Shown here: positions 20,746-36,072 of the stretch, in pieces
Layout of the letters: each line of letters begins with the position of its first letter
Position numbering within the stretch: position 1 is the stretch's first letter
NCBI RefSeq assembly: GCF_000828715.1
Contig: NZ_AP014583.1
Location: forward strand, 1,858,001-1,922,000
Source of the DNA: Winogradskyella sp. PG-2
Lineage (GTDB): Bacteria > Bacteroidota > Bacteroidia > Flavobacteriales > Flavobacteriaceae
Direction: 5' to 3'
DNA: 64,000 bases
Notes under the pieces: generated by a model
What the model saw: only the letters and a program-made list of their open reading frames with translations
Told to the model about the DNA's origin: nothing
The model's database searches: none
Program-made: the position numbers and the translations under genes

Positions 20746-20807
20746 CGATTCAACAGGTTTACTTATCGAAAAACTCTACATGTAGATTACGCTTTCTTTT
20801 AATTTTG
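20746..20807 (+). promoter_or_regulatory. 21-bp box promoter upstream of the 62-aa ORF
   Basis: Two boxes, CGATTC starting at 20746 and CGAAAAA starting at 20767, are 21 bp apart. TAATTTTG (20800-20807), a perfect TAnnTTTG -7 element, begins exactly 33 bp after the second box. This is the same layout as at the exopolysaccharide promoters. The transcript would run into the small ORF at 20980 with a leader of about 165 nt. Confidence 0.6.
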
Positions 20808-20979
20808 TCTCAAGAATTATCAACCAAAATGAATTGATAGATTGTGAGTGTAATTGCTATTTAATCCATTTCATTAATTATAGATTTATCCGCTTATTTA
20901 TTCAGGAAAAATCAGTTAAGTTTCAACGATTTTAAAGAGTCATATCTATTCATAAATGATACTTTAACCAAAGGGGCAT

Positions 20980-21168
20980 GTGAAAGAAAGTAGTAATGAT
21001 CTTACCATATCAGAAATTAAAACTGATCAAATTAAAATAGAATTGAATAAAAGTCTTAAACACTTAGAATTTATTAACCAATTAGAAAACTATATAGAGT
21101 TATTAGGTGAAAGCGTTTTAACTGTTGAGTTTTTAAAAGAGTTTGAGGAAAGTAAGAGAAAAGCATAA
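20980..21168 (+). CDS. Small acidic hypothetical protein
   Basis: A 62-residue hydrophilic protein read from GTG 20980, with an AAAGGGG purine run about 8 bp upstream that would serve as ribosome binding site. It is predicted to be two helices (TDQIKIELNKSLKHLEFINQLENYIELLGES, split across the middle here) with no signal peptide and no membrane segment. I do not recognise a family. It lies between a 21-bp box promoter and the promoter of the H-NOX operon, so it belongs to the signalling island by position. It could be a small partner protein; a chance ORF is not excluded. Confidence 0.45.
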   Translation: MKESSNDLTISEIKTDQIKIELNKSLKHLEFINQLENYIELLGESVLTVEFLKEFEESKRKA

Positions 21169-21230
21169 CTATCAATTATAAAGACGACTAATACTTTTGA
21201 CCTTGCAGCTTAAAAATTAAATTTCCATTC

Positions 21231-21314
21231 GTCGACACTTGGCTGCAATCTGTCGAAACATAAATACAATTAACCGAAAATAGATCTAATCCATTAGCAA
21301 TAAACGTTAATTTG
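21231..21314 (+). promoter_or_regulatory. Three 21-bp boxes and promoter of the H-NOX signalling operon
   Basis: Boxes CGACACTT (21233), CGAAACAT (21254) and CGAAAATA (21275) follow each other at exactly 21 bp. TTAATTTG (21307-21314), one mismatch from TAnnTTTG, begins 32 bp after the last box. The first two boxes are preceded by GT, giving GTCGACAC and GTCGAAAC. This control region precedes the operon that encodes a LytTR regulator, so autoregulation is plausible. Confidence 0.7.
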
Positions 21315-21338
21315 TTTTCATTAGACAAAAAACGCAAA

Positions 21339-21749
21339 ATGAAAACCCTCAACATACTATTAATCGAAGATGACATTATAGAAGTGATGAAACTCAACAG
21401 AGCAACAAGTTCTTTGGGGTTAAATCATAAAATTAAAGAAGCTAATAATGGAGAAGATGCACTAAGTATATTAGAGCAAAAAGACAGTTTACCAGATATT
21501 ATATTACTAGATTTAAACATGCCAAAAATCAATGGTACTGAATTTCTAAGGATACTTAAGGCAGACCATCGATTGAAGTATATTCCAACGATAATACTTA
21601 CAACATCAAATAACCAACGTGATTTATTAGAATGTTATAAGATAGGTATTGCTGGTTATGTCTCAAAACCTTTAAAATATGAGGATTATGTTTCCAAAAT
21701 AGAAAAATTATTAGGATATTGGAGCATAAACGAATTAATTAAGTCATAA
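21339..21749 (+). CDS. Single-domain response regulator
   Basis: A 136-residue stand-alone receiver read from ATG 21339 (the longer frame from 21312 adds nine unlikely residues). Acidic pocket Asp11-Asp12, phosphoacceptor Asp58 in ILLDLNMP, Thr/Ser in ILTTSN and Lys in YVSKPLK are all present, so it should be phosphorylatable. No output domain follows. It belongs to the Rcp1-like group of receivers often paired with heme or light sensing kinases. The stop overlaps the H-NOX start by 1 nt. As first gene of the operon it may compete for phosphate or act by protein contact. Confidence 0.9.
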   Translation: MKTLNILLIEDDIIEVMKLNRATSSLGLNHKIKEANNGEDALSILEQKDSLPDIILLDLNMPKINGTEFLRILKADHRLKYIPTIILTTSNNQRDLLECYKIGIAGYVSKPLKYEDYVSKIEKLLGYWSINELIKS

Positions 21750-22288
21750 TGAAAGGAATGATTTTTACTGAATTTTTAGAGCTTGTTGAAGAAAAATTTG
21801 GACTAGTAATGGTTGATAAGATTATAAATCAATCTAATTTGGATTCTGAAGGAATTTATACAGCTGTAGGTACATACGAATTTTCTGATATGTTACAACT
21901 TCTTACACATCTGAGTAATAATACTGATATTTCAATCGATGATTTACTGCTGGTTTACTCAGAGCATTTGTTTAAAGCCTTGTTAAAAACACACCCTAAT
22001 TTGGTAGATCATTACAAAGATCCAATGGATCTGTTGGCTTCAATAGAGAACCATATACATGTAGAAGTGCAAAAAATATATCCTGAAGCTCAATTACCAA
22101 CTTTTGAAATAGAAGATCGTACAGAAACCAAAATGATAATGATTTATAAATCAGATAAAGCATTGTACATGCTTGGTAAAGGTTTGATGTTAGAAACATT
22201 TAAGTCATTTAAAGTACCTGTAAATATTGAGGTTGAAAAACTTAATAAAATTGGTACAGAGGTGAGATTCACGATTAATAGGAGCTAA
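21749..22288 (+). CDS. H-NOX (heme NO-binding) domain protein
   Basis: A 179-residue stand-alone H-NOX protein, the bacterial relative of the soluble guanylate cyclase heme domain. The proximal heme ligand is His104 in HVEVQKIYPEAQLP, with Pro117 thirteen residues later as in the family. The heme-propionate motif YxSxR appears as Tyr133, Ser135 and Lys137, i.e. with Lys in place of Arg. Counted from these anchors, the position of the oxygen-binding distal tyrosine of Thermoanaerobacter H-NOX is Leu142, so NO selectivity is expected. Both adjoining genes overlap by one base. In other bacteria such H-NOX proteins inhibit a partner histidine kinase when NO is bound; the next gene is such a kinase. 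Confidence 0.92.
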   Translation: MKGMIFTEFLELVEEKFGLVMVDKIINQSNLDSEGIYTAVGTYEFSDMLQLLTHLSNNTDISIDDLLLVYSEHLFKALLKTHPNLVDHYKDPMDLLASIENHIHVEVQKIYPEAQLPTFEIEDRTETKMIMIYKSDKALYMLGKGLMLETFKSFKVPVNIEVEKLNKIGTEVRFTINRS

Positions 22289-23877
22289 TGAGTCAAGAGG
22301 AGATTAATATTCTCAAAAGAGCACTCAAGCGCGAAAAGGCATCTAGAAAAGCTGCTGAAGAGATTTTAGAAGCAAAGTCTGCAGAGCTTTATGAGGTTAA
22401 TAAAAAGCTTGAAGCTTCCCATAATGAGCTAATTTCTTTATATAATAAAACAAATTCTCAATTACAAGGTGTATTTGAAAACATAGTTGATGCTTATGTT
22501 ATTATGGACCTTTGGGGCAATATTCTAAAACTGAATGATGCCGCAGTGGAGTTACTAGGTTTTGAGACTACCAAAGATGATGGTAACCTTATGAATCTTG
22601 TCGATCCAAACGATAAGGATATGATTACTCCTTCATTTAAAAAATTAATAGAAGCGGGTTCTATTACAGATTTTAAAATTACTATTTTAACTAGCAAAAA
22701 AACAAGAAAGTTTATACATATTAACGCCAGTATTATATACGAAAATGATAGAGCGGTAGCTGCACAGGGCATTATTAGAGATATAACTTTAGAAGATAAA
22801 TACCAAAAAGCTTTAGAAGCAGAAAAACAAAAGTATAGCAGTATAATTGCTAATATGAATTTAGGATTAGTTGAGTTTAATAGTAATGATGAAATTCAGA
22901 TGATAAATCAGAGTTTTTCTGAGATGTCTGGTTATAAAGAAGATGAGTTGATTGGTAAAACAGGATGGGAAATGTTTCCTGATGATTGTGGTTCGGACAT
23001 AATTAAAAAAGAAAGTAAAAAACACGCTAAAGGTGAGTCTAATTCCTATGAAGTTAAAGTAAAAACAAAAAATAGAGATACTAGGTATTGGTTAATTAGT
23101 GAAGCACCTAATTATGATCTCAATGGTAATATAATAGGCTTAATAGGTATTCATTTAGATATCACCGATCTAAAAAGTTTACAATTTCAAAAAGAAAGTC
23201 TTCTTTCTAAGTTAGAAAAAAGTAATGATGAGTTGCAAGAATATGCACATATAGTTTCACACGATTTAAAATCGCCTCTGCGAAGTATTGATGCTTTAAT
23301 TCAATGGATTAAAGAAGATAATAAAGACCAACTAAATGAAGTTACACTTCAAAATTTTGCACATATAGAAGGGACTTTAGAAAAGATGGAGCAACTCATC
23401 TCTGACATATTAGATTATTCGAGTATTGGGTCCGAAAATAATGAAAAGGCTGATGTGAATACTAAAGAATTAGTAAATGAATTAGTGAATATTTTATATG
23501 TACCAGATCATATTAAGATTTCTGTAACTGAAGATATGCCAATTGTAAAGGGCGATAAAATAAAGCTTCAACAATTATTTCAAAATTTAATTAGTAATGC
23601 TGTAAAGTTTATTGATAAACAAGAGGGGAAAATAGATATAAATGTAAAAAAATTACCAAATCATTTTGAATTTTCAATAACCGATAACGGTATGGGTATT
23701 GAGAATCAGTTTCATGATAAAATTTTTAAAATTTTTCATTCTTTAAATAATAGTAAAGAATCTACAGGTATTGGTTTATCTATTGTAAAAAAGATTGTTG
23801 ATTTACACAAGGGAAGTATCTGGCTTGAAAGTGAACCAGGTAAAGGTTCAACGTTCTATTTTACCCTAAAAAAATAA
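22288..23877 (+). CDS. PAS-PAS histidine kinase, probable H-NOX partner
   Basis: A 529-residue cytoplasmic histidine kinase. A coiled coil (residues 1-60) leads to a first PAS domain (about 60-170) and a second (about 185-300). The HisKA domain has the phosphoacceptor His325 in AHIVSHDLKSPLRSID. The ATPase domain has QNLISNAVKF, DNGMGI and STGIGLSIVKKIV. There is no membrane segment, so the input must be intracellular, in line with a partner H-NOX protein encoded directly upstream with a 1-nt overlap. It has no receiver, so phosphate must pass to separate receivers or the Hpt in this operon. The kinase core is a close paralogue of the one encoded at 25067. Confidence 0.92.
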   Translation: MSQEEINILKRALKREKASRKAAEEILEAKSAELYEVNKKLEASHNELISLYNKTNSQLQGVFENIVDAYVIMDLWGNILKLNDAAVELLGFETTKDDGNLMNLVDPNDKDMITPSFKKLIEAGSITDFKITILTSKKTRKFIHINASIIYENDRAVAAQGIIRDITLEDKYQKALEAEKQKYSSIIANMNLGLVEFNSNDEIQMINQSFSEMSGYKEDELIGKTGWEMFPDDCGSDIIKKESKKHAKGESNSYEVKVKTKNRDTRYWLISEAPNYDLNGNIIGLIGIHLDITDLKSLQFQKESLLSKLEKSNDELQEYAHIVSHDLKSPLRSIDALIQWIKEDNKDQLNEVTLQNFAHIEGTLEKMEQLISDILDYSSIGSENNEKADVNTKELVNELVNILYVPDHIKISVTEDMPIVKGDKIKLQQLFQNLISNAVKFIDKQEGKIDINVKKLPNHFEFSITDNGMGIENQFHDKIFKIFHSLNNSKESTGIGLSIVKKIVDLHKGSIWLESEPGKGSTFYFTLKK

Positions 23878-23878
23878 T

Positions 23879-24976
23879 ATGCTAATTACAACAACGAACA
23901 TTACTGAAATTGTAGACGCAATTTCAAACCATGTTAATGGCGAAGCTGCTTTAATTTCTGTAGGCGAACATACAGAAATTGATATAGAAAAGTTGGTTAT
24001 TACTTTAGATAATGCCAACTTAAAATTCATGGGTGGAATTTTTCCGAAAGTAATTCACGGAAATTCTATTTTTGATAAAGGTATAGTTTTGAATACCCTT
24101 AACAATGTCGAAGAACTATTCTTAGTAAAAGACATTAGCAAAAAAGATTACACCATCCCACAAATTAATTTTGATGAAAGTATTGCATATAGCATTATTA
24201 CTTATGTAGATGGTCTTACATCTAATATCTCTCATTATCTAAGTAGTTTATATGAAAACTATGGAATGCAAACCAATTATTTTGGAGGAGGAGCAGGTAG
24301 TTTGTCATTAGAGCAAAAGCCTTGTGTATTTTGTAATGAAGGTCTTTTTCAAGATGCAGCTGTAGGTTCTTTAGTGCGTATGCAATCTAGAATAGGAGTG
24401 CGACATGGATGGAATAAAGTTGATGGTCCTTTTATTGTAACAAAGGCCGAAGGCAATATTATAAAAGAGATTAATTGGAAAAACCCTTTTGAAGTCTATA
24501 AAGAGGTTGTAGAAGCTCATTCTAATAAACAATTTAATGATGATAATTTTTTCGAAATAGCTAATGGGTATCCTTTTGGTATTGTAAAAGATCATGCGGA
24601 ATGTATTGTAAGAGATCCTCTAATGGTTAACGAAAAAGGGGAACTAGTTTGCATCGGTGAGTTAGAGGATAATACACTTGTAGATATACTTAATGGTAGT
24701 GAAAGCTCTTTAATAGAAGCAGCTCAAAATGCAGCTGAAGAAAGCCTCTTATTAGCAGAACAACCAAAAAAAGCAATTATTATAGATTGTATTTCTAGAA
24801 TTTTATTTTTAGAAGATAATTTTGATAAAGAGCTCAATGCTATTACAAAAACGATAAGTGATAAGTTTCCTGATGTATCCGTTGGTGGAGCATTAACGCT
24901 TGGAGAAATATCGTCTTATGGTGAAGGGTTCTTAGAGTTTTATAACAAAACAGTTGTTATTGGTTTATTTGAATAG
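23879..24976 (+). CDS. FIST-domain protein (candidate NosP-type sensor)
   Basis: A 365-residue protein with FIST N and FIST C domains, seen in LISVGEHTEIDIEKLVITL and NYFGGGAGSLSLEQKPCVFCNEG, and at the end in VSVGGALTLGEISSYGEGFLEFYNKT. FIST proteins are small-ligand sensors, and the NosP members are NO-responsive heme proteins that control a histidine kinase and an Hpt pathway. Here the gene lies 1 bp after an H-NOX kinase and before another kinase and an Hpt gene, the gene company seen for NosP. Heme binding cannot be read from sequence: cysteines and histidines are present but I cannot name a ligand. Amino acid sensing is the alternative. Confidence 0.87.
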   Translation: MLITTTNITEIVDAISNHVNGEAALISVGEHTEIDIEKLVITLDNANLKFMGGIFPKVIHGNSIFDKGIVLNTLNNVEELFLVKDISKKDYTIPQINFDESIAYSIITYVDGLTSNISHYLSSLYENYGMQTNYFGGGAGSLSLEQKPCVFCNEGLFQDAAVGSLVRMQSRIGVRHGWNKVDGPFIVTKAEGNIIKEINWKNPFEVYKEVVEAHSNKQFNDDNFFEIANGYPFGIVKDHAECIVRDPLMVNEKGELVCIGELEDNTLVDILNGSESSLIEAAQNAAEESLLLAEQPKKAIIIDCISRILFLEDNFDKELNAITKTISDKFPDVSVGGALTLGEISSYGEGFLEFYNKTVVIGLFE

Positions 24977-25066
24977 ATGAAACGAGCATGATAAAAATTT
25001 TGTCACACAACGGAATGATTAATAGCGAACAGCATCTGACCTTAAAAAGGCAGTAATTATGAACAG

Positions 25067-26233
25067 ATGAAATTAGAAAACAACATATTAGAGATTCTTC
25101 CCCTTTACGAATATGCTATGGCTATTGGTAAATCTGTAGATTATAAAGAAAGTTGTGATTTATTTCTAAAATTAATTTTAAGACGTAAGAATTTAAATGC
25201 TGCTTGGATTCTCGAAAGAAAAGACAATCAGTTGAGATCCACATACTCTATTCCATTAGGAAAAAAAGTTACTATAGTATCAGATAAGAACATTAACAAA
25301 CTTATAGAAAGCGTAAAAGATCATAAGCTTACTGAGGTAGATGCCAGCATTTCTGAGTTGGTGCCAATAGATATTAATACAGGTTATTTAGCCATATTTA
25401 ATCTAAAAGAGCAAGGATATTTATTTCTATATTCTAAATTAGAAAGACTTAAGCAAAAGGACTTATTACAGTTACAACCAGTAATTAATAAATTTTTAAT
25501 AAGTCTAAAGGCTTGTAAAGCGTTTAAGAGACAACAAATATTATTAAATAATTTAGAGTTGCGTAATCAAGAGTTAAGTGATTATGCACATATGGTTTCT
25601 CACGATTTAAAATCACCATTGCGAAGCATTGATACATTAATAGCATGGCTTAAAGATGATTATATTGATAAGCTCGATGATCAAGGACAACAAAGTCTTA
25701 ATCTCATAAGAAATAGTGTTGAAAAAATGGATACTCTGATTAATGGAATTTTAGAATATTCTACAATCGGTAAAAGTACAATTGAGGTCTATGATGTGGA
25801 TTTAGATAACCTCGTTGACGATATTTTAGACATTATTTATATACCAGATACTATTGAAATTAGAAAAGAAAAATTACCATTAATAAAAGGTGATAAATAT
25901 CGATTACAACAGTTGTTTCAGAACCTAATAAGTAACTCAATAACTTATAATGATAAAGAATATGGTATTGTTGAGATTGGTGTAATAGACAAGAATGATT
26001 TTTGGGAATTTTATATAAAAGATAATGGAAAAGGTATTGAAGAAGTATATTTTAAAAAGATATTTGAGACCTTTCAAAGGTTAGAAAGCAATCAAGATTC
26101 TACAGGTATTGGATTGTCTATTGTAAAGAAAATAGTAGATCTTTATGGTGGTGATATTTGGTTAACTTCTGAATTGAAAAAAGGAACCACATTTTTCTTC
26201 ACCCTAAAAAATAATTATAATGGAACAGCCTAA
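25067..26233 (+). CDS. Histidine kinase, probable FIST partner
   Basis: A 388-residue cytoplasmic kinase. The N-terminal 160 residues look like a small GAF-type input domain (AMAIGKSVDYKESCDLFLKL, then AAWILERKDNQL) but I would not insist on it. The HisKA motif is AHMVSHDLKSPLRSIDT with His179; the ATPase has FQNLISNSITY, DNGKGIEE and STGIGLSIVKKIVDLYGG. The core is about as similar to the kinase encoded at 22288 as recent duplicates are. No membrane segment is present. It overlaps the Hpt gene by 14 nt. By order it is the partner of the FIST protein, and its phosphate can go to the Hpt and then to the LytTR regulator. Confidence 0.9.
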   Translation: MKLENNILEILPLYEYAMAIGKSVDYKESCDLFLKLILRRKNLNAAWILERKDNQLRSTYSIPLGKKVTIVSDKNINKLIESVKDHKLTEVDASISELVPIDINTGYLAIFNLKEQGYLFLYSKLERLKQKDLLQLQPVINKFLISLKACKAFKRQQILLNNLELRNQELSDYAHMVSHDLKSPLRSIDTLIAWLKDDYIDKLDDQGQQSLNLIRNSVEKMDTLINGILEYSTIGKSTIEVYDVDLDNLVDDILDIIYIPDTIEIRKEKLPLIKGDKYRLQQLFQNLISNSITYNDKEYGIVEIGVIDKNDFWEFYIKDNGKGIEEVYFKKIFETFQRLESNQDSTGIGLSIVKKIVDLYGGDIWLTSELKKGTTFFFTLKNNYNGTA

Positions 26234-26537
26234 TCTGTCTTATATAGAGAGTATGTCTGGAGGCGATAAAGCCTTTGAGCAAAAGCTTATAGACATCATA
26301 AAAAAAGAGTTTCCAGAAGAGAAAAAAGTTTATTTTGATAATGTAACAGCAGAAAATTTTAAAGAAGCTGCAGAAAATGTGCATAAACTTAAACATAAAA
26401 TTAGTATTTTAGGGCTTACAAAAAGTTATGACGTTGCCGCTGGTTATGAGTTTAATCTCTTAGATAAGAGTAGCATTGGTAAAGAAGATTTTGAATCTAT
26501 TTTGCAAAGCATGACGGATTTTTTAGAGACCATATAA
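26220..26537 (+). CDS. Hpt domain phosphotransfer protein
   Basis: A 105-residue single-domain histidine phosphotransfer protein, fully helical. The phosphoacceptor is His55 in VHKLKHKIS, which corresponds to HxLKGxS in most Hpt proteins; the Gly is replaced by His59. It overlaps the kinase gene before it and precedes the LytTR regulator by 9 nt. It is positioned to connect both kinases with the receivers of the operon. Hpt proteins also mediate NosP signalling in Pseudomonas, which fits this gene company. Confidence 0.83.
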   Translation: MEQPNLSYIESMSGGDKAFEQKLIDIIKKEFPEEKKVYFDNVTAENFKEAAENVHKLKHKISILGLTKSYDVAAGYEFNLLDKSSIGKEDFESILQSMTDFLETI

Positions 26538-26546
26538 GTTTGTTTT

Positions 26547-27263
26547 ATGAATTGTATTATCATCGATGATGAAGCTACAGCAAGAGTAATTATTAGTCAA
26601 TTGTGCACTAATATAGATAGCCTAAAAGTTTTAGAAGAATTTCCTAATGCAATGCAAGCCATTAAGTATTTAAATCAGAATGTCATTGATTTAATATTTT
26701 TAGATATTCATATGCCTGACTTTACAGGTTTCGATTTTATTGATACTATTAAGAATCCACCTAAAATTATTTTAACAACTTCTGATACAAACTTTGCAAT
26801 TCAGGCATTTGGTTATGATTGTATTGTAGATTATTTAGTAAAGCCTATTACGCCTAAGCGTTTTCAAAAAGCGATTCATAAGGCAGAAGCGATTAAGCCA
26901 AGTATAGAATCATTAAAAGAAAATGTATCTGGCCAAGTAGAGACCAGTTCTGGTAATGATTTATATGTTAATATAGATAGGCGATTAATTAAAATAGATA
27001 TACCAAGTATTTATTTAGTTGAGGCCAAAGGAGACTACATTCAAATTAAAACTGAGGATAAAAACTATACTGTACACTCAACACTTAAGAAAATTGAGGA
27101 TAAACTACCGGACAGCTTATTTTTAAAAATACACCGTTCATACATTATCAATGTCGATAAAATTATTGATATAGAAGACAATAGTGTATTGATAAAGAAA
27201 GATGTAATTCCTGTAAGTCGTTCTAATAGACCAGAATTAATGAAACGTCTTAATTTATTGTAA
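26547..27263 (+). CDS. LytTR-family response regulator
   Basis: A 238-residue response regulator of the LytR/AlgR class. The receiver (about 1-120) has Asp7-Asp8, phosphoacceptor Asp53 in IFLDIHMPD, and the conserved KPI. The LytTR DNA-binding domain (about 140-238) shows IYLVEAKGDYIQIKT, then FLKIHRSYIINVDKI and VIPVSRSNR. LytTR regulators bind tandem direct repeats of about 9 bp spaced 12-13 bp, which gives a 21-22-bp period. Sites of that period lie upstream of its own operon, right after it (two small RNAs), and before the exopolysaccharide and LruC genes, so it is the best candidate for the common regulator. It is the last gene of the operon. Confidence 0.93.
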   Translation: MNCIIIDDEATARVIISQLCTNIDSLKVLEEFPNAMQAIKYLNQNVIDLIFLDIHMPDFTGFDFIDTIKNPPKIILTTSDTNFAIQAFGYDCIVDYLVKPITPKRFQKAIHKAEAIKPSIESLKENVSGQVETSSGNDLYVNIDRRLIKIDIPSIYLVEAKGDYIQIKTEDKNYTVHSTLKKIEDKLPDSLFLKIHRSYIINVDKIIDIEDNSVLIKKDVIPVSRSNRPELMKRLNLL

Positions 27264-27293
27264 ACTATTCAAAGAAACATATTAGTCTCCTAA

Positions 27294-27354
27294 CTACATG
27301 TTACGTTCATTCGACGAAAAATAATAAATTACCTTTGAATTAACTATATTTTTG
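27294..27354 (+). promoter_or_regulatory. 21-bp box promoter of predicted sRNA 1
   Basis: CTACATGT (box at 27294) and CGAAAAAT (27315) are 21 bp apart, and TATTTTTG (27347-27354), a full TAnnTTTG match, begins 32 bp after the second box. The predicted start near 27361 leads into a short transcript with a strong terminator. Confidence 0.7.
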
Positions 27355-27360
27355 AAGTAA

Positions 27361-27430
27361 TAATCATATGTAATGGTTTTTAAAATTGATAGCTAATTTT
27401 AGGGCAAAAGATTTATCTTTTGCCTTTTTT
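27361..27430 (+). ncRNA. Predicted small RNA 1 downstream of the LytTR gene
   Basis: A predicted transcript of about 70 nt from the box promoter at 27347-27354. It ends in a perfect 9-bp hairpin, GGCAAAAGA (27403-27411) with TCTTTTGCC (27416-27424), followed by six T. The only ATG-led frames are trivially short, so it is non-coding. The same terminator stem GGCAAAAGA recurs in the second unit 357 bp later. By layout, two adjacent response-regulator-controlled small RNAs resemble the Qrr-type logic of Vibrio, but there is no sequence relation. Confidence 0.6.
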
Positions 27431-27588
27431 GTTAAATGTAGTTATGTAACAATAGATGTATTTACTATTTGACGTCATAATAAAGTTAACTCACTTTTAT
27501 TAAGACTTATCCATTGAATTTTATGGTTTAAGTATATTTTCCGAATTACTTTATCTAGCAGTTAATTCTGCACCGAACGATATATGAA

Positions 27589-27691
27589 TTTACACTTTAA
27601 ACCATTCGACGACAGTAATTAGTTATCCAACGTCTTATTACTTTATTTTAACGAATAAAAATTAAATCGTTTTTAATTAATGATAAATTTG
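27589..27691 (+). promoter_or_regulatory. Four-box 21-bp array and promoter of predicted sRNA 2
   Basis: Boxes begin near 27589 (TTTACACTT, one base off phase), 27610 (CGACAG), 27631 (CGTCTTAT) and 27652 (CGAATAAA), i.e. 21-bp steps. TAAATTTG (27684-27691), a full TAnnTTTG match, begins 32 bp after the last box. It is the longest array in the window and would give cooperative loading of a direct-repeat binding protein. Confidence 0.62.
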
Positions 27692-27697
27692 AAAGAT

Positions 27698-27787
27698 CAA
27701 GGTGGTGTAAAATTAAATTAGGTTAATATAAATGACGTACCCTTAATTAATACTAGAAAGGCAAAAGAGAAATCTTTTGTCTTTTTT
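27698..27787 (+). ncRNA. Predicted small RNA 2
   Basis: A predicted transcript of about 90 nt from the promoter at 27684-27691. It ends in the hairpin GGCAAAAGA (27760-27768), loop GAAA, TCTTTTGTC (27773-27781, one G-T pair), then T6. The stem is nearly the same as that of small RNA 1, while the bodies share only short stretches. The one ATG inside opens a four-codon frame. The terminator and promoter are both good; the RNA itself needs transcript data. Confidence 0.6.
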
Positions 27788-27946
27788 ATTTCTAAAACCA
27801 TCCAATTAGGACATAATTTAAAGTGACTCATAATTGCGCATTTAAAATACGAATTAGTAATTTTTAATTAGAATGCTACATTAAAATCTAAATACTAATT
27901 GAATTCAAATGCTTAAATAACTTGACTCAGGTTAAGCTTACTTAAA

Positions 27947-28029
27947 CTATGAATATTTTCATTTCGACTATACTGAATGTCTATCCGACGAAAAAAATAA
28001 AAATATAGTCAACTCTGAAAGTAAATTTG
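27947..28029 (+). promoter_or_regulatory. 21-bp box promoter of the receiver/sugar transferase unit
   Basis: CTATGAAT (27947), CTATACTG (27968) and CGAAAAAA (27989) follow at 21-bp steps, and TAAATTTG (28022-28029), a perfect TAnnTTTG, begins exactly 33 bp after the last box. The start codon of the receiver gene is 54 bp further on. Confidence 0.72.
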
Positions 28030-28082
28030 TAACATAAATTAACTATTAACAATAGGTCTAAAAGAATAATTAAAAAAATATA

Positions 28083-28469
28083 ATGAAAAAAAAGATATTA
28101 GTAATTGATGATGAGTTAACAATGACAACTATGCTTGAGTTTTTTTTATCAAATAAATATGAAGTAAAAGCTGTTAACTCAGGTGAAGAAGCAGAAGCTT
28201 GGCTCGAAAAAAAAATACCTGATTTAATAATCAGTGATATTCAAATGAGCGAGATGGACGGTTTTACACTTTTACAAAACATAAGATTAAGAGGCTATAC
28301 CAAGCATACACCAATCATTATGCTTTCAGGTAAACCAGAAAGTAAAGAGCGTATAAAATCCTACAGACTAGGTGCGCAGGATTATTTAACAAAACCATTC
28401 AACCCAGAAGAACTGGATGAAGTGGTTAAGAAGAATTTATACCCAATTCATTATAGTAACGTCTGGTAA
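28083..28469 (+). CDS. Single-domain response regulator at the head of the EPS locus
   Basis: A 128-residue stand-alone receiver. Asp9-Asp10, phosphoacceptor Asp52 in IISDIQMSE, Ser in IIMLSG and Lys in YLTKPFN are present, so it should accept phosphate. There is no output domain. It is followed 28 bp later by a sugar transferase that itself carries a degenerate receiver, so it may signal by heterodimer contact with that protein and tie polymer initiation to the upstream phosphorelay. That link is inferred from gene order and the shared fold. Confidence 0.88.
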   Translation: MKKKILVIDDELTMTTMLEFFLSNKYEVKAVNSGEEAEAWLEKKIPDLIISDIQMSEMDGFTLLQNIRLRGYTKHTPIIMLSGKPESKERIKSYRLGAQDYLTKPFNPEELDEVVKKNLYPIHYSNVW

Positions 28470-28497
28470 TTAAGAAATTAAAAAAATTTTTTGAACA

Positions 28498-29679
28498 ATG
28501 AAAATACTATATATAGGCAGTTATACTCAAGATATACAAAGAATCAAAGAAGAGACTGAAACTTTAGTGATTCAATGTAGTAATGGCTTAAAAGCCATAG
28601 AGATTTTAAATACTCATGATGATATTTTGGCTATAATCTGTGAGTATAATTTACCTGAAAATAATGGGATAAACTTTTATAAGAAGCTTTTAAATGAAGA
28701 AATCTTATCAAAGAGACCATTCATTTTACTAGTTGAAGAGCATAATAATAGAATCTACAAGGAGGCATACAATAGTGGAATTGACGATTACTTTGTTGCT
28801 AATTCTACAAAAACAGAGCAAATTTTGATTAGAGCGAAACAATTATCTCATCGTTGTAAAGGTTTAAATTCAGCTAGTTCTGTTCAACCTGTAAAATATA
28901 AGTTCCCATTAACAAAGAGAGTTTTTGATGTTGTTATTGCTTCAATAATTTTATTATTGCTTTCGCCATTATTATTGATTACAATTATTGCTATCAGAAT
29001 AGAGTCAAAAGGGAAGGTGTATTATATATCAAAACGCGTCGGCAGGAAAACGTTTGATTTTTATAAACTAAGATCAATGCGATCAGGATCAGATAAGCTC
29101 TTAAGTCAACTTGCTAAAGAGAAAAACCAATACAATAAGTCTGAAACCCAAACTAAAGTTAATTTAGAAGAAAAATGTCCTAGATGCGCTAAGCTACCAG
29201 CTGGGTATCATTGCTCTGCTGTAAAATATAATGAATTAGATAAGGTTTGTGATTATTGGCATACACACCAAAAACAAAAACAACAAAACAATAATTCAAG
29301 CTTTATCAAGATTATTGATGATCCTAGGATTACAAGATTAGGTAAAATAATTAGGAATACGAGTATTGATGAATTACCTCAACTCATAAATGTTATAAAA
29401 GGGGATATGTCTCTAGTAGGTAATAGACCACTGCCAGTATATGAGGCAGAGTTACTGACTCAAGATCAAAAGTCTAAACGTTTTTTAGCACCAGCAGGAA
29501 TTACGGGGCTTTGGCAAGTAGAATTACGTGGAAAAGGAGGGGATATGTCTGAAGATGAACGTATATCTTTAGATAATCGTTATGCAGATTATTTTGCAGG
29601 TGACAACTACTCACTATGGTTAGACTTAAAGATTCTTTTTAGAACAGTTCCAGCATTATTTCAAAAAAGTACAGTATAA
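28498..29679 (+). CDS. Degenerate receiver fused to a sugar transferase
   Basis: A 393-residue two-part protein. Residues 1-120 fold like a receiver but the phosphoacceptor Asp is Glu in IICEYNLPENNG and the conserved Lys is lost (YFVANS), so it cannot be phosphorylated normally. Residues 140-393 form a bacterial sugar transferase (WcaJ/WbaP class) that starts the repeat unit by moving a sugar-phosphate to undecaprenyl phosphate. It has one strong hydrophobic hairpin (about 142-168), then YYISKRVGRKTFDFYKLRSM, TSIDELPQLINVIKGDMSLV and GITGLWQVE. A Cys-containing insert (CPRCAKLPAGYHCSA, then VCDYW) interrupts the catalytic domain, as in related flavobacterial enzymes. A terminator follows. 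It probably sets EPS initiation. Confidence 0.9.
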   Translation: MKILYIGSYTQDIQRIKEETETLVIQCSNGLKAIEILNTHDDILAIICEYNLPENNGINFYKKLLNEEILSKRPFILLVEEHNNRIYKEAYNSGIDDYFVANSTKTEQILIRAKQLSHRCKGLNSASSVQPVKYKFPLTKRVFDVVIASIILLLLSPLLLITIIAIRIESKGKVYYISKRVGRKTFDFYKLRSMRSGSDKLLSQLAKEKNQYNKSETQTKVNLEEKCPRCAKLPAGYHCSAVKYNELDKVCDYWHTHQKQKQQNNNSSFIKIIDDPRITRLGKIIRNTSIDELPQLINVIKGDMSLVGNRPLPVYEAELLTQDQKSKRFLAPAGITGLWQVELRGKGGDMSEDERISLDNRYADYFAGDNYSLWLDLKILFRTVPALFQKSTV

Positions 29680-29701
29680 TTTTTTTCAAAGTTACTTTTA
29701 G

Positions 29702-29738
29702 CTGCTATTTCATTTTGTTTAAATAGCGGTTTTTTTTA
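29702..29738 (+). terminator. Terminator after the sugar transferase gene
   Basis: CTGCTATTT (29702-29710) pairs with AAATAGCGG (29721-29729, one G-T pair), followed by eight T. It separates the initiation unit from the tolC-wzc-wzx operon. Confidence 0.75.
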
Positions 29739-29775
29739 TTTCTCTTCATTTTGCAGGACTGTAAAAATGTTTAAT

Positions 29776-29858
29776 CAACAGGTACGTTTAATTCATCTAC
29801 ACTTAGCGTTCATCCATCGAAATATAACAGAATTTACTCTAGTGACATTGTAAGTTTG
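29776..29858 (+). promoter_or_regulatory. 21-bp box promoter of the tolC-wzc-wzx operon
   Basis: CTACACTT (box at 29797) and CGAAATAT (29818) are 21 bp apart; a weaker TCAA element sits a further 21 bp upstream (29776). TAAGTTTG (29851-29858), a perfect TAnnTTTG, begins exactly 33 bp after the second box. The boxes and the spacing are the same as before the wzy operon. Confidence 0.75.
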
Positions 29859-29896
29859 TTTTGAAGAAATACAATAACAGATAAATATTTTGAGCT

Positions 29897-30631
29897 ATGA
29901 CATATATTTCAAAAACTTTATTAAGCTTAATATTATTTGCGCTATTAAACGCTGTTGCTTACGCTCAAGATACAATAGTAGATAGTAAAAAGCCAGAATC
30001 TTTTAAACTATTAATACCAATGCTTAATGTTCTTATAGATTCGGCTTTAACAAACAACGGAATGCTTGGTTACAGGAAAAATGAAATTGAAGTGAAGAAA
30101 GCTAATCTTAAAGCAAAGCGCAGAAATTGGACAAGAAATTTTGGAATCCAAGCAGATACTAGGTATGGTACCTTTGACAATTTTTCTAATAATATTAGTG
30201 GTCCCAATACGGTAACTTTAGCAAGTACAACTACACAAACTAACTATGGTGTAGGCTTATACTTAAAAATTCCCGTATTTGATATTTTCAATAGAAAGTC
30301 TGATATAAAACAAGCAAAGGCTGAAATATCTCAAGCCGAAAGCTTGGTGGAATTTCAAGAATATGAAATTAGAGAAACAGTAATTAGATATTACGAAGAT
30401 TTAGTTCTAAAGGAAAACTTGCTCGAAATTCAAGCCACCAACCTCAGTGATGCTAAGGTAAATAATGAAATGGCAAAAAAGGAGTTTACTAATGGGCAAA
30501 TGGAAATATACGAGTACATAAGAATATCAGATATCACAGCTGGTGTAGCAACAGAATTTGAAAAAGCAAAGTCAAACTTACTTTTGGCGAAAAAGCTATT
30601 GGAGAATTACACGGGTGTGAAAATCAATTAA
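29897..30631 (+). CDS. TolC-family outer-membrane protein (short form)
   Basis: A 244-residue protein, about half the length of a full TolC. A signal peptide (to about AYAQD, residue 24) is followed by one outer-membrane-efflux repeat: a short beta section (YGTFDNFSNNISG, then TNYGVGLYLKIPVFD) and long helices with AEISQAESLVEFQEYEIRETV. Short TolC-like proteins of this size occur in flavobacterial polysaccharide loci and may work as a trimer or hexamer channel partner. It is the first gene of the tolC-wzc-wzx operon, 18 bp before the wzc-like gene. I see no frameshift that would explain the length. Confidence 0.83.
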   Translation: MTYISKTLLSLILFALLNAVAYAQDTIVDSKKPESFKLLIPMLNVLIDSALTNNGMLGYRKNEIEVKKANLKAKRRNWTRNFGIQADTRYGTFDNFSNNISGPNTVTLASTTTQTNYGVGLYLKIPVFDIFNRKSDIKQAKAEISQAESLVEFQEYEIRETVIRYYEDLVLKENLLEIQATNLSDAKVNNEMAKKEFTNGQMEIYEYIRISDITAGVATEFEKAKSNLLLAKKLLENYTGVKIN

Positions 30632-30649
30632 TTTTATAAGCAAAAAACA

Positions 30650-32974
30650 ATGAAACCTATTGATCTAATAAAACTGATATTAAAGCATAAGACGATTCTT
30701 ATAGTAATGCCATTGATTTTTGGGGTATTAGCAGTGTCGATTACACTAAACCCAAAGAGAAGCTACTATTCCGATACCATGCTGTATACAGGCATAGCTT
30801 CGGGATCCTCCATAGAAATGGATAAAACGTTTAATTATCTAGCAGCTAATAATGCATTTGATAACCTTATTAACATCATTAAATCTAGAGACACGCAAGA
30901 AGAAGTTGCAATAAGATTATTAAGTCTACACTTGTCCTTAAAAGAGGCAAATCATAAGTTTATTTCAGAAGAAGCATATGAAGAACTACAGGCAATTCTT
31001 CCAGAAGATATTAAAAGCCATTTGTCCAATCAGATAAAACTTGAACAAGACGGCAATTTAAACTATGAAGCTACAGTGGCATACCTAACAGAAGTAATGC
31101 ATAATGATAATTCTAATTTTGTGTATTCACTACTTAGTTTTCACCATAGATACTATTCTATTGAGGCAATTTCAAAAGTAAAAATAGAACGTATTTCTTC
31201 AAGTGATTTGGTAAAATTGAGTTATGAGGCAGATGATCCTGGAATTTGCCAACAAACACTAAAAATCTATATAGAGGTCTGCACCAAGATGTATAAGAAC
31301 CTTAAAGAAAATGGTTCTGATGCTGTTGTAAAATACTTCGAAGAACAACTGATGTTGTCCGAAACGAAATTGAAGGCTATCGAGCAGAAGATGCTGAAAT
31401 TCAATCAGGATAATAACATTATAAATTACTATGAGCAAAGTAAAGCGGTTGCTATAGTAAAAGAAGACATGGAAGTGGTCTATAAAAGAAACATGGCTCA
31501 ATTAGCGGGTTCACAGGCTTCAATAAAACGTTTGGAGGAAAAATTGGCAATACAGGAACTTATTCAAGAAAAGAATAATGCTATTGTAGAAAGCAAAAAG
31601 CAATTGGGGGATCTGAACTATAAAATAGGTATGTATTCGGCTAAATCTAATGGAGATGAGCGTTCTATTCAAAACATAGAACAATTAAAAAAGCAGGTTC
31701 AAGCCCTTCAGAAAGAAATAAAAACTAATGTGGACGAGCTGTATTCGTTTCAAAATTCAACAGATGGTGTACCTATTAAAAAAGTATTGCCAGACTGGGT
31801 GGATAAAGTTGTTGAGACCGCAGACTTAAAAGCTAAGCTCTCGGTTATGGATACGCAGAATAAAGCCATAGAAAAACAATTTGCAACATATGCTCCAGCT
31901 GGTGCTAATTTAAAGCGAATAGAACGAGAAATAGAGGTAGTAGAACAAGAATATCTTGACATTTTACATGGTCTAAATCTAGCTAAGCTTAAGTTTCAAG
32001 ATACACAACTGTCCAGTAATTTAACTGCTGTAGATCCGCCGTTTTATCCATTGAAGCCTATTCCTTCTAAACGAAAAATTATCATCGTTGCAATTGTACT
32101 AATTACTGGTGTTATTATCCTTGCATGCATTTTACTTATGGAAATATTTGACGATACATTAAAAAATGAAGAAAAAGCAAAAGAGATTTTAGAAATTCCA
32201 TCTATGGGAATGATTCCTAAGCTTTTCAGAGCAAAGCCACATTTAGATTTAGTAAGAATGCAAGATCGTTTGATGGAGTTTATAATGCAGGATTTTAATA
32301 GAATATTCAAAGAGACGAGCATTACGAAGACACCTAAAATAATTACAATTTTTAGTACAAGAAATAATGAAGGTAAAAGCGTTATTGCTTCTAATATTGC
32401 TAAAAAATTAAAAGCGTCAGGAGATTCCGTTATGGTGTTAAACCACTCGAATGAAGATAGGTCTAAGACTAGTGTTTCTAGATCGGCCTGGTTATATAAA
32501 TTCTTTGGTTATCAAGATCCAAGAATAGATTGTAACCATCCGTTCTTGTCTTCTGCAAATGATAATTTAAGTACCTCTGAATACAAAATATATAATGTGG
32601 ACGAAGCTTATAAAGGAATTACGGATTATCAAGAATTTATGGTCAATGTGTCAGAAAATAACATTCGTAGCTTAGACCATATTTTAATCGAATTGCCAAA
32701 TTTACTAGAGTTTAGCTACCCTTCAGAATTAATAGCAAATTCTGATTTAGTATTAATGGTTTGTCGTTCTAATAGATTATGGTCTAAGGCAGATAATAAC
32801 ATTCTGGATAATTTAAAAGCAATTGCGGGCGAAAAATTACAGTTTATTATTAACGGTGTTGAGATTAAGGAAGTGGAGACTGTTTTGGGTGAGTTGCCAA
32901 AGAAGCGTTCTAAGACTAGAATTAGATTAAAGAACATGTTCCGTTTTCAGTTCTACTCGAGTAGTCATATTTAA
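30650..32974 (+). CDS. Wzc/GumC-like polysaccharide co-polymerase
   Basis: A 774-residue inner-membrane protein that regulates length and export of the polymer. It has a membrane segment at about residues 13-33, a large periplasmic part with a long coiled coil (about 225-430), a second membrane segment (about 475-497) and a cytoplasmic ATPase-like domain. That domain resembles a BY-kinase but is degraded: Walker A is STRNNEGKS, Walker A' has no acidic pair (VLNHSNEDRS), and Walker B reads HILIELPNL. The C-terminus has no tyrosine cluster. It therefore probably lacks tyrosine kinase activity and works as a structural co-polymerase. It is between the tolC and wzx genes. Confidence 0.88.
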   Translation: MKPIDLIKLILKHKTILIVMPLIFGVLAVSITLNPKRSYYSDTMLYTGIASGSSIEMDKTFNYLAANNAFDNLINIIKSRDTQEEVAIRLLSLHLSLKEANHKFISEEAYEELQAILPEDIKSHLSNQIKLEQDGNLNYEATVAYLTEVMHNDNSNFVYSLLSFHHRYYSIEAISKVKIERISSSDLVKLSYEADDPGICQQTLKIYIEVCTKMYKNLKENGSDAVVKYFEEQLMLSETKLKAIEQKMLKFNQDNNIINYYEQSKAVAIVKEDMEVVYKRNMAQLAGSQASIKRLEEKLAIQELIQEKNNAIVESKKQLGDLNYKIGMYSAKSNGDERSIQNIEQLKKQVQALQKEIKTNVDELYSFQNSTDGVPIKKVLPDWVDKVVETADLKAKLSVMDTQNKAIEKQFATYAPAGANLKRIEREIEVVEQEYLDILHGLNLAKLKFQDTQLSSNLTAVDPPFYPLKPIPSKRKIIIVAIVLITGVIILACILLMEIFDDTLKNEEKAKEILEIPSMGMIPKLFRAKPHLDLVRMQDRLMEFIMQDFNRIFKETSITKTPKIITIFSTRNNEGKSVIASNIAKKLKASGDSVMVLNHSNEDRSKTSVSRSAWLYKFFGYQDPRIDCNHPFLSSANDNLSTSEYKIYNVDEAYKGITDYQEFMVNVSENNIRSLDHILIELPNLLEFSYPSELIANSDLVLMVCRSNRLWSKADNNILDNLKAIAGEKLQFIINGVEIKEVETVLGELPKKRSKTRIRLKNMFRFQFYSSSHI

Positions 32975-32975
32975 G

Positions 32976-34328
32976 ATGAAGAAGCTGTTCAATAAAATAA
33001 TCAGAGAAGATAATTTCTTGTCCTTATCAGGAAACCTAACTATCGCACTATTGGGTTTTGGTGGTTTTGCTTTACTAGCAAGAAGTTTAGAGACACAAGA
33101 ATTTGCACAGTGGGTACTATTTATTTCTGGGGGATCGCTTGTTGAAATGCTTCGTTATGGAATTACCAATAATGGACTGGTAAGGTTTCTTTCGGGAGCC
33201 ACAGAAAAGAATAGGGATCAGTTAATAGGAGCTAATGTACTTATTAGCTTATTGGCAACTTTGATTATAGCCATGTTGTTGGTTAGTGTTAAATTAATTT
33301 TTGGTGATGTTATTAATACATCTTCGTACGTGCTCTTTTTTAGCTGGTATCCAGTTCTGGCATTTGTAAACCTTCCGTTTAACAATGCGCTTGTAGTACA
33401 ACAGGCAAAAATGAGGTACGACAAAATTTTAATTATTAAAGCATTAAATAGCGGGTTGTTCTTTAGCTTTTTGGTAGTGAATACTTTTGTTTTAAAATGT
33501 TCTGTCTTAGAGATTACCTTAGTGTTTTTGGGTGTAAATACAATCACTTCTTTGGTTTGTATAGGTAAATCCTGGGATGGTTTAAAGCTAATTATAAAAG
33601 CGACTAAAACAACACTAAAAACCTTATTGAACTTTGGAAAGTACAGCACGTTTACACTTATTGGAACAAACTTATTGCGTAATGCAGATATTTTAATTAT
33701 TAGTGTAAGCCCTTTTGGAAGCACTGCCGTAGCCTTGTTTAGTATCCCGTTAAAACTAACTGAGATCCAGCAAATTCCTTTACGAAGTTTTACGGCAACA
33801 GCTTTTCCTAAAATGTCAAAAGCGAGTTTAGAGGGAAAAACAAATGATGTAAGAGTATTATTTAATACTTATTCAGGTGCATTAACCTATTTGTTTTTTG
33901 CCGTGTCTATAGGAACCTTTGTTTTTGCGGAAGCATTTGTAATTCTAATATCCGGATGTCAATATTTAGATACCAAGATAATGGGAATAGATATTGTAGC
34001 TATTGTGAGAATATTATCGGTTTATGGTTTATTGCTTCCTGTAGATAGAATGACAGGGATTGGTTTAGACAGTATCAATAGACCTAATATTAACGCCTTA
34101 AAAGTGGCCATAATGTTAGGTGCTAATATTGTTGGTGATTTGATAGCTATATATGTCTTCAAGTCCATCGAAATGGTTGCTGTTTCAACACTTGTATTTA
34201 CAACTGTTGGGATTATAGTAGGTGCTTATTTCCTAAATAAGACATTTCGTGTTTCTCTATTGGAAATTTTTAAGAGCGGTCATGCATTTTATAAAAGCCT
34301 TTGGCGTCAATCAAAACAATTTATCTAA
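32976..34328 (+). CDS. Wzx-like oligosaccharide flippase
   Basis: A 450-residue protein with about 12-14 hydrophobic segments, of the polysaccharide-biosynthesis/MOP flippase class. Visible parts are the N-terminal NLTIALLGFGGFALLARSL, a central LIGTNLLRNADILIIS and SIPLKLTEIQQIPLRSFTA in the second half, all typical of Wzx. It would move undecaprenyl-linked repeat units to the periplasm. It begins 2 nt after the wzc-like gene and ends the operon; the following wzy operon has its own box promoter. Confidence 0.87.
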   Translation: MKKLFNKIIREDNFLSLSGNLTIALLGFGGFALLARSLETQEFAQWVLFISGGSLVEMLRYGITNNGLVRFLSGATEKNRDQLIGANVLISLLATLIIAMLLVSVKLIFGDVINTSSYVLFFSWYPVLAFVNLPFNNALVVQQAKMRYDKILIIKALNSGLFFSFLVVNTFVLKCSVLEITLVFLGVNTITSLVCIGKSWDGLKLIIKATKTTLKTLLNFGKYSTFTLIGTNLLRNADILIISVSPFGSTAVALFSIPLKLTEIQQIPLRSFTATAFPKMSKASLEGKTNDVRVLFNTYSGALTYLFFAVSIGTFVFAEAFVILISGCQYLDTKIMGIDIVAIVRILSVYGLLLPVDRMTGIGLDSINRPNINALKVAIMLGANIVGDLIAIYVFKSIEMVAVSTLVFTTVGIIVGAYFLNKTFRVSLLEIFKSGHAFYKSLWRQSKQFI

Positions 34329-34459
34329 GAGTTTTAGGTTTAACTAACCGATAATAGTATTTTATTTAGAAGCTACGATTAGAGATTGTGGCTTTATATT
34401 TTGGTTCAAAGTATAGGTCTTCAGGAATACATTAAGAAAACTTAATAACATTCCCTTAT

Positions 34460-34542
34460 CAATAATAGTTTTCTATTCGTCTACACTTAATGATTATTAG
34501 TCGAAATCTAGCCGACATCACTCGGTTTAGAATTTATGTTTG
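34460..34542 (+). promoter_or_regulatory. 21-bp box promoter of the wzy operon
   Basis: CTACACTT (box at 34481) and CGAAATCT (34502) are 21 bp apart, with a weaker TCAA element at 34460, again 21 bp upstream. TATGTTTG (34535-34542), a perfect TAnnTTTG, begins exactly 33 bp after the second box. Both main boxes are nearly the same as at 29797 and 29818. Confidence 0.75.
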
Positions 34543-34584: not shown

Positions 34585-36072
34585 ATGGACATATTTAAAA
34601 ATCATATTAACCCTTTTGAAAATAACTCGGGCTCAATGCGCGTAACCAAGCTCAGTAGTGCAATTATACTTTTTGCACTACTCACTGTCTTGGGATTTGT
34701 TATTGTTAAAACTAAGGTTACAGGGGTTGCATTTTGTGTTGGTTTGTTTTTTGTTGTAGCCTTAATATATGTCATATTTAAATCCCCTAAAATCGGAATC
34801 TATATTAGTATCATTCTAGGCTTTTTTGCAATAGGTGCTTCACGATATGTGGAAGCTCCATGGGGATTAACTATAGATGCTTTACTGGTATTAATATATA
34901 TTGCTTTATTCTTTAAGGCATTTAGAGTGAAACTAGCATGGCATAAAGCCAAATCTAGTTTAACCCTATTAGTTAGCTTATGGATGGCCTATGTGTTATT
35001 ACAATTAGGAAATCCAGAAGCATTGAGTAGAGAAGCTTGGTTTTATGCAATGAGAGGGGTTGGTCTCTACCAGTTTTTAGCAATTCCACTACTCTTTATG
35101 CTTTTTAATAAGCAAAAAGATTTAAATAACTTTTTCATTATTTGGGGAATTTTGTCATTATTAGGAACCTTAAAAGGAATACAGCAATTTCAGTTTGGAG
35201 TAGATCCTTTCGAACAGCGTTGGTTAGAGTTGGGTGGAGCAGAAACACACATCCTTTTTGGGAAGTTAAGGATTTTTTCATTTTACTCAGACGCTGGGCA
35301 ATTTGGTGCCTCTCAAGCACATGCGGGTGTTGTTTTTGGAATTTTGGCACTGTTCAAAAAAACAAATCTTCGACTTAGATCCTTTTTTATAGCTGTTGCA
35401 ATAGGCGGTTTTTTTGGCATGATGATATCTGGAACCAGAGGAGCTATTGCTGTGCCAGCTATTGGTGGATTTGTATTTTTAATACTCAGTAAAAACATTA
35501 AAATTCTCATTCTAGGGGGAATGTTAGTTGCAGCTGCATACATATTTTTTGCACATACCACTATAGGACAGGGAAACTACGAAATTAGAAGAATGCGTAC
35601 TGCCTTCGATCCTAATGAGGCATCATTGCAAGTTCGTTTATCCAATCAAAGAAAACTTAAAGGATATCTAGCAACAAGGCCATTTGGTGGTGGGCTTGGT
35701 GCTACGGGAAACTGGGGATTGCGTTTTACACCTCAGAGCTTTTTAGCCAATACAGCAACAGATAGCTGGTATGTAATGATTTGGGCAGATACAGGTGTGG
35801 TTGGATTAGGGTATTATTTATTTATGTTGTTTTTTATTCTTGTTTCTGGAGCTCGAAATGTCATGTTCAAAATAAAGGATCACAATTTAAAAATACAGAT
35901 AACAGCGATTACCTGTGGTATGGCCGGCATTATGATGGCCTCTTATGGTAATGGTGTTTTTGGGCAAATGCCGACGGGGATACTTATGTACGCAACCATG
36001 GTTTTTATGTTTGTTTCTCCCCAATTAGATAAAAATAAAGCATTAAAAACTTATAAAATAATGGATTTATGA
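34585..36072 (+). CDS. Wzy-like O-antigen polymerase/ligase
   Basis: A 495-residue polytopic protein with about 12 hydrophobic segments and a long periplasmic loop, of the Wzy/O-antigen ligase family. The loop contains FYSDAGQFGASQAHAGVVFG and the next segment GMMISGTRGAIAVPA, a common Wzy_C pattern; further on come RLSNQRKLKGYLATRPFGGG and DSWYVMIWADTGVVG. It would polymerise EPS repeats in the periplasm. It overlaps the next gene by 4 nt and heads an operon of seven genes up to 41264. Confidence 0.88.
   Translation: MDIFKNHINPFENNSGSMRVTKLSSAIILFALLTVLGFVIVKTKVTGVAFCVGLFFVVALIYVIFKSPKIGIYISIILGFFAIGASRYVEAPWGLTIDALLVLIYIALFFKAFRVKLAWHKAKSSLTLLVSLWMAYVLLQLGNPEALSREAWFYAMRGVGLYQFLAIPLLFMLFNKQKDLNNFFIIWGILSLLGTLKGIQQFQFGVDPFEQRWLELGGAETHILFGKLRIFSFYSDAGQFGASQAHAGVVFGILALFKKTNLRLRSFFIAVAIGGFFGMMISGTRGAIAVPAIGGFVFLILSKNIKILILGGMLVAAAYIFFAHTTIGQGNYEIRRMRTAFDPNEASLQVRLSNQRKLKGYLATRPFGGGLGATGNWGLRFTPQSFLANTATDSWYVMIWADTGVVGLGYYLFMLFFILVSGARNVMFKIKDHNLKIQITAITCGMAGIMMASYGNGVFGQMPTGILMYATMVFMFVSPQLDKNKALKTYKIMDL

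Follow-up and report, generated by a model that had tools for sequence, protein, structure and literature searches.

Between positions 20746 and 34542 of the 64-kb stretch of Winogradskyella sp. PG-2 DNA analyzed here (the window), a series of promoters is preceded by boxes repeated every 21 bp, which raises the question of which protein binds these boxes and whether it activates or represses the genes behind them. Our reading, to which we give a probability of roughly 0.8, is that the boxes are bound by the product of the gene at 26547, a response regulator of the REC-LytTR type, which would thereby activate its own operon, the polysaccharide genes and short units that follow, with a nitric oxide (NO) relay placed upstream of it via an Hpt-like phosphotransfer protein.

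A geometry check of 20746 to 34542 found seven promoters, all on the forward strand, with boxes at exact 21-bp steps throughout, two to four positions per promoter, and distances from the last box to the -7 element of 33, 32, 32, 32, 33, 33, and 33 bp for promoters 1 to 7 in order. Every coordinate and step of the preliminary description, which had placed the last box 32-33 bp ahead of the -7 element, therefore holds. Promoter 1 (20746-20807) has a weak distal position at 20746, its last box at 20767, and the -7 element TAATTTTG at 20800; as the distal box does not match the consensus (scores of -17.9 and -31.2), this site rests on the last box and the -7 element. Promoter 2, that of the signalling operon (21227-21314), has boxes at 21233, 21254, and 21275 and the -7 element TTAATTTG at 21307, and promoter 3 (27294-27354) has boxes at 27294 and 27315 and TATTTTTG at 27347. 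Four positions precede TAAATTTG (27684) in promoter 4 (27589-27691), at 27589, 27610, 27631, and 27652, with those matching the consensus of relatives being 27610 (distal) and 27652 (last). The same -7 sequence, TAAATTTG, is found at 28022 in promoter 5 (27947-28029; boxes at 27947, 27968, and 27989), while promoters 6 (29791-29858; boxes at 29797 and 29818) and 7 (34475-34542; boxes at 34481 and 34502) carry TAAGTTTG at 29851 and TATGTTTG at 34535, respectively. The preliminary description needs amendment in that the -7 element is exactly TAnnTTTG in six of the seven promoters but TTAATTTG at 21233, the 20746 distal box is off consensus, and the distal match of the 27589 promoter is at 27610.

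The motif was then defined from relatives, using the best 80 of 545 confirmed loci with close LytTR orthologs, in most cases including 10 kb of flanking sequence in both directions (1.57 Mb); the nearest named relatives in this set are Winogradskyella, together with Psychroserpens, Algibacter, Lacinutrix, and others. In these best 80 loci, CGAAA follows [CT][GT]ACACTT within 60 bp in 77 cases on the gene strand and in three on the other, the 77 pairs being spaced by 21 bp (n = 32), 42 bp (n = 28), 22 bp (n = 6), 43 bp (n = 2), or other distances (n = 9). From 48 sites in 37 loci, a consensus unit ATTCRTCKACACTTAA recurring each 21 bp was obtained, with the last unit being YTAANCGAAATATAA, the CGAAAT box. 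Where an exact TAnnTTTG lay within 70 bp of these 48 sites, its distance was 32 or 33 bp in 24 of 25 cases. In the 28 three-unit sites, the middle unit, which had not been selected for, kept 15 of 16 consensus positions in 16 to 28 of the 28 sites and the remaining one in 9. A promoter score trained on the relatives' loci only, combining the distal unit, the last unit, and a -7 element at 32-33 bp, gave 247 matches of >16 bits on the gene strand versus 5 on the other across 79 of the best 80 loci, a count that includes the 48 training sites. Nine of the 247 sit inside long open reading frames (ORFs), and 89 of 155 strong matches have their inferred start 12-26 nt ahead of the next ORF.

Applied to both strands of the window, this score returned seven sites of >14 bits and no eighth: promoters 1 to 7 scored 20.4, 40.1, 24.3, 25.6, 24.0, 48.1, and 47.6 bits, respectively. 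Shuffled windows (n = 200) gave 0.75 sites per window at >14 bits, 0.28 at >16, and 0.015 at >20, with a maximum of 22.3 (a first set of six gave 0.17 per window at >14 bits); only the 20746 site falls within the range that shuffles reach. When the -7 window was shifted, matches of >16 bits in the window dropped from seven to between zero and two, with the overlapping windows of 31/32 and 33/34 keeping three and four.

The preliminary description had proposed a genome scan of the spaced motif, which was carried out with short patterns and a profile. The exact pattern CKACACTT-N13-CGAAA occurs three times in the 3.81-Mb genome, each time at one of the seven window sites. With one mismatch allowed, this two-box pattern was found 10 times in all versus 16 in a reversed control, such that only exact matches stand out. 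Similarly, CGAAA-N27/28-TAnnTTTG was not enriched in number genome-wide (10 versus 26 in the reversed control), although five of the 10 occurrences are sites of the seven promoters, within 14 kb; the other five were set aside, being without a distal box, with three inside ORFs. A longer combined pattern was too strict, giving zero matches even at the known sites. A profile, R1, trained on the 32 of the 48 relatives' sites with a 21-bp step, gave three matches in the whole genome at E <0.01, which are the exact two-box sites; E values were 4.9e-5 for promoter 2 (whole genome), 1.8e-8 for promoter 6, and 2.8e-7 for promoter 7. The next match was promoter 5, upstream of the receiver gene at 28083 (E of 0.05 in the genome and 0.00075 in the window), and the window sites at 20746, 27294, and 27589 were missed at an E of 1. 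By these patterns, no strong two-box site was found in the genome outside this locus, and weaker candidate sites may exist elsewhere, since R1 also misses three known ones. Outside the window, an intergenic last-box/-7 match without a distal box (G000:C1:1734275-1734314) lies upstream of a 407-aa gene and is possibly a weak additional target.

The proposed binder, encoded at 26547-27263 (+ strand), consists of a REC domain and then a LytTR DNA-binding domain, both above the Pfam cut-off (Response_reg and LytTR). Its segment FLKIHRS is close to the LytTR family motif FhRhHRS (PMC4227749). The statement that the window encodes no other LytTR protein stands among the 20 window ORFs scanned, but the genome as a whole encodes about 13 near full-length LytTR relatives, and for this reason tests of linkage between motif and gene were needed. 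In 149 genomes of the family, searched with R1 at an E of 0.01 and for the LytTR ortholog at an E of 1e-70 (stricter filters lose weak matches), R1 was found in 38 and the ortholog in 64: both in 36, the motif only in 2, the gene only in 28, and neither in 83, including the only genome of the same genus in the sample. The corresponding Fisher value is about 1e-14, which is overstated because the genomes are related. Of the 58 R1 matches, 50 were no more than 25 kb from the ortholog and without exception on the same strand as it; the other eight were not near it. In the 28 regions with the gene only, where the orthologs are more distant, 16 had a match of >15 bits, with 28 such matches on the gene strand versus 1 on the other (20.1 bits, in L131); in the remaining 12 nothing of >15 bits was found near the ortholog.

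It is unlikely that the boxes are instead bound by another DNA-binding protein, for instance one of the LytTR paralogs or a regulator unlinked to this locus. The number of LytTR relatives in the genome, the two of 149 genomes with the motif and no detected ortholog, and a conserved unit that exceeds the 9-bp repeat would suit such a protein; against it, both the presence and the place of the motif track the 26547 ortholog, and at seven paralogous LytTR loci in this genome no match exceeds 15 bits (two reach 14.9 and 14.0 bits, on the other strand). Moreover, in the probably autoregulated operon Pfam places a DNA-binding domain in the REC-LytTR protein alone, with no DNA-binding family matched in the other genes. 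Co-occurrence, linkage, the null result at the paralog loci, the lone DNA-binding domain, and the likeness to published sites described below all favor the 26547 protein, which the preliminary description had named as the regulator, and the assignment of the 21-bp boxes as its putative sites is well supported.

A 21-bp period had been called typical of LytTR targets, which is borne out by published sites alike in length and spacing: those of HdrR are 9-bp repeats with a 12-bp gap, ACCTCTTAG-12-ACCACTTAA (PMC6193735), and the PlnC repeat is TACGTTAAT (PMC2714321). The box core TACACTTAA on its 21-bp step agrees with these in both respects; the step is found in seven of seven promoters and in relatives, and a core like TACGTTAAT or ACCACTTAA on a 21-bp direct-repeat step is shared with HdrR, BrsR, and PlnC. 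The LytTR domain, a site upstream of the promoter, and autoregulation are common to PlnC/PlnD, AgrA, HdrR/BrsR, and the putative system described here. Unlike PlnC/AgrA/HdrR-type sites, those in the window have two to four positions and a conserved unit of 15-16 of the 21 bp, longer than the classical 9-bp repeat, and a CGAAAT last box that departs from the LytTR core and keeps a constant distance of 32-33 bp from a -7 element of the Bacteroidota type, with no -33 element. In LytTR regulatory systems (LRS), the regulator is likewise autoregulated by direct repeats (PMC6193735), although there a LytTR protein is paired with a membrane inhibitor, whereas here a REC-LytTR protein accompanies kinases and an Hpt-like protein, with Hpt-like, kinase, and receiver genes as the neighbors of lytTR. 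In the agr system (AgrA-RNAIII), a LytTR regulator likewise turns on its own operon together with a neighboring RNA (RNAIII), an arrangement that is predicted here as well. The agr system differs in that no peptide signal or membrane kinase was seen here and in that the short units are of 70-100 nt. Activation by LytTR proteins at direct repeats is known, and the 21-bp code is supported as a putative variant of it.

The preliminary description had also proposed an activator that replaces a missing -33 element. In Flavobacterium psychrophilum, the sigma-A -7 box occupies -12 to -5 (PMC9723704); with this position and the geometry above, the last box begins around -45, and its core reaches to roughly -36. 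TTG at the -33 position occurred in 5% of 159 strong sites. Of 1262 further TAnnTTTG occurrences in these loci, the majority of which are not established promoters, 13% had it; the scarcity at the strong sites is compatible with an activator that may take over the -33 contact. It is quite improbable that the LytTR protein on the boxes acts as a repressor whose last box overlaps the polymerase site. The position of that box, at about -45 to -36 and so near the core promoter (PMC9723704), would allow it, and PlnD, a LytTR protein, represses at sites that it has in common with PlnC (PMC2714321), but these promoters seldom have a TTG at -33, as if an activator were needed, and LytTR autoregulation via such repeats is positive in HdrR (PMC6193735). 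Under activation by the 26547 regulator, protomers would form a head-to-tail row along a single face of the DNA, with the last one standing in for the absent -33 contact and recruiting sigma-A RNA polymerase; the constant spacing of 32-33 bp suggests a way in which an activator might work at promoters without a -33 element.

The operon at 21339-27263 (+ strand) is a predicted conserved H-NOX/kinase/Hpt/LytTR relay. It begins with a receiver-domain protein (21339-21749; Pfam Response_reg), for which the ATG at 21339 (136 aa) suits the relatives (136-138 aa) better than the TTG at 21312, which is close to the inferred -7 element. Next is an H-NOX (heme NO-binding) protein (21749-22288; Pfam HNOB, 118 bits), whose gene adjoins that of a PAS histidine kinase (22288-23877; Pfam). 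The usual H-NOX motif is Y-x-S-x-R; that of this protein (21749-22285) is Y-x-S-x-K. The protein at 23879-24976 (Pfam FIST and FIST_C) scored 30.3 bits against the NCBIfam NosP model, for which the cut-off is 450, and is named FIST only. A second histidine kinase (25067-26233; Pfam) precedes the Hpt-like protein (26220-26537), which had no Pfam match. A four-helix model of the latter has a pLDDT of 88, and its best 11 fold-search matches were Hpt proteins at an E of about 0.2 (none <0.001). It carries an invariant HKLKHK, the His being invariant in six of six aligned sequences (6 of the 10 first chosen). By tblastn, matches to H-NOX were found in 75, to FIST in 47 (many at 22-26% identity), to the kinases in 80 (a single gene can be hit by both queries), and to Hpt in 80 of the best 80 of 545 loci. 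The operon's promoter (21233) is among the best conserved sites, and therefore positive feedback is likely; the operon probably autoregulates.

In other bacteria, partner kinases are the targets of H-NOX and of NosP FIST proteins (PMC12570481, PMC6769237). Here, the two kinases, beside H-NOX and FIST, would phosphorylate the regulator via the Hpt-like protein, and from the domain names we infer that the relay may read NO or a related signal. The output would be the signalling operon itself, the polysaccharide genes next to it, and, immediately after lytTR, a pair of short transcripts that end in terminators. In the H-NOX/NosP networks of Vibrio, signals pass from HqsK or VpsS to LuxU to LuxO (PMC6769237). 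As predicted here, NO sensor proteins act on kinases, with one Hpt and one response regulator, and the output includes several small RNAs (PMC6769237); the short RNAs of this locus are predictions. Unlike in Vibrio, the output regulator is a LytTR protein rather than LuxO, and the parts are in one operon.

The short units, at 27355-27433 and 27692-27791 (+ strand), follow the promoters at 27294 and 27589, from which about 80-100 bp run up to a terminator with no gene between. Both terminators show paired changes in relatives. The units were aligned (A2) using 28 of 36 candidates; six were without a terminator, L032_1127 and L049_942 were left out, and the end of L028 was set by hand. An Rfam search of the window at gathering score found tRNA only, the short units matching no curated family. 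Two further lines of evidence were rejected. TTAATAGC, considered as a conserved seed, was present in seven of the 28 units but also at 12 of 149 other terminators (relaxed, 10 of 28, with a shuffle mean of 0.09, versus 17 of 149), and as many of these others are the 3' end of a secreted-protein gene, it is no evidence of a seed. Model R2 ranked both window units first, but both were in its training set, and three further terminator-like matches had an E of <0.01, so that R2 is no proof of a family.

Whether the units are small RNAs or relics stands at about even odds. As relics, they would be the leader and terminator of a secreted-protein gene that follows in other species: the TTAATAGC-plus-terminator stretch ends a gene of roughly 860 aa in 13 loci, and the 5' part of the units is poorly conserved. 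Against this, units could be aligned from 22 relatives' loci, where they lie 3' of lytTR with up to three in a row (L058 and L136), and both partners have changed in 10 of the 11 terminator pairs (26 units). In the distant relative L136, three near-identical copies of promoter, short unit, and terminator, 238 bp apart, are found 2459-2935 from the lytTR start.

Taken further, the locus might represent a phosphorelay for NO in Bacteroidota, running from H-NOX and FIST kinases through Hpt to LytTR and ending in tandem small RNAs, each with a LytTR promoter of its own. This would be a LytTR counterpart of LuxU-LuxO-Qrr, with an extended 21-bp site on which protomers sit head to tail and the last of them replaces the -33 contact of the Bacteroidota sigma factor; we offer this interpretation tentatively, as one that is somewhat doubtful in its entirety. 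No described binding site for a Bacteroidota LytTR regulator was found among the open-access titles and abstract openings listed, and the code proposed here is a precise and testable one for such a regulator. It would tie predicted NO sensors to a transcriptional output, with named targets: the relay itself, polysaccharide genes, secreted proteins (in relatives), and predicted short RNAs.

Downstream of promoters 5 and 6 lie, respectively, a receiver protein and polysaccharide sugar transferase genes (28083-29679, + strand; Pfam) and outer-membrane-efflux-like, chain-length (Wzz-like), and flippase genes (29897-34328, + strand; Pfam, the Wzz match being slightly under the cut-off), and promoter 7 is upstream of a Wzy-like gene at 34585. 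The outer-membrane-efflux (TolC-like) protein (29897-30631) is of 244 aa only, about half the usual length of TolC. The layout of promoter 1 recurs ahead of a 124-132 aa gene in eight relatives; here, the small membrane-protein-like gene downstream of it (20811-21230) is interrupted in frame, while it is open in those eight. Target genes in relatives, examined singly, included those for proteins with type IX secretion tails, CAP-domain proteins, UDP-glucose dehydrogenase, a STAS-domain protein, and polysaccharide genes. In one relative, a secreted target protein (L015:11024-14257) carries an ice-binding-like domain.
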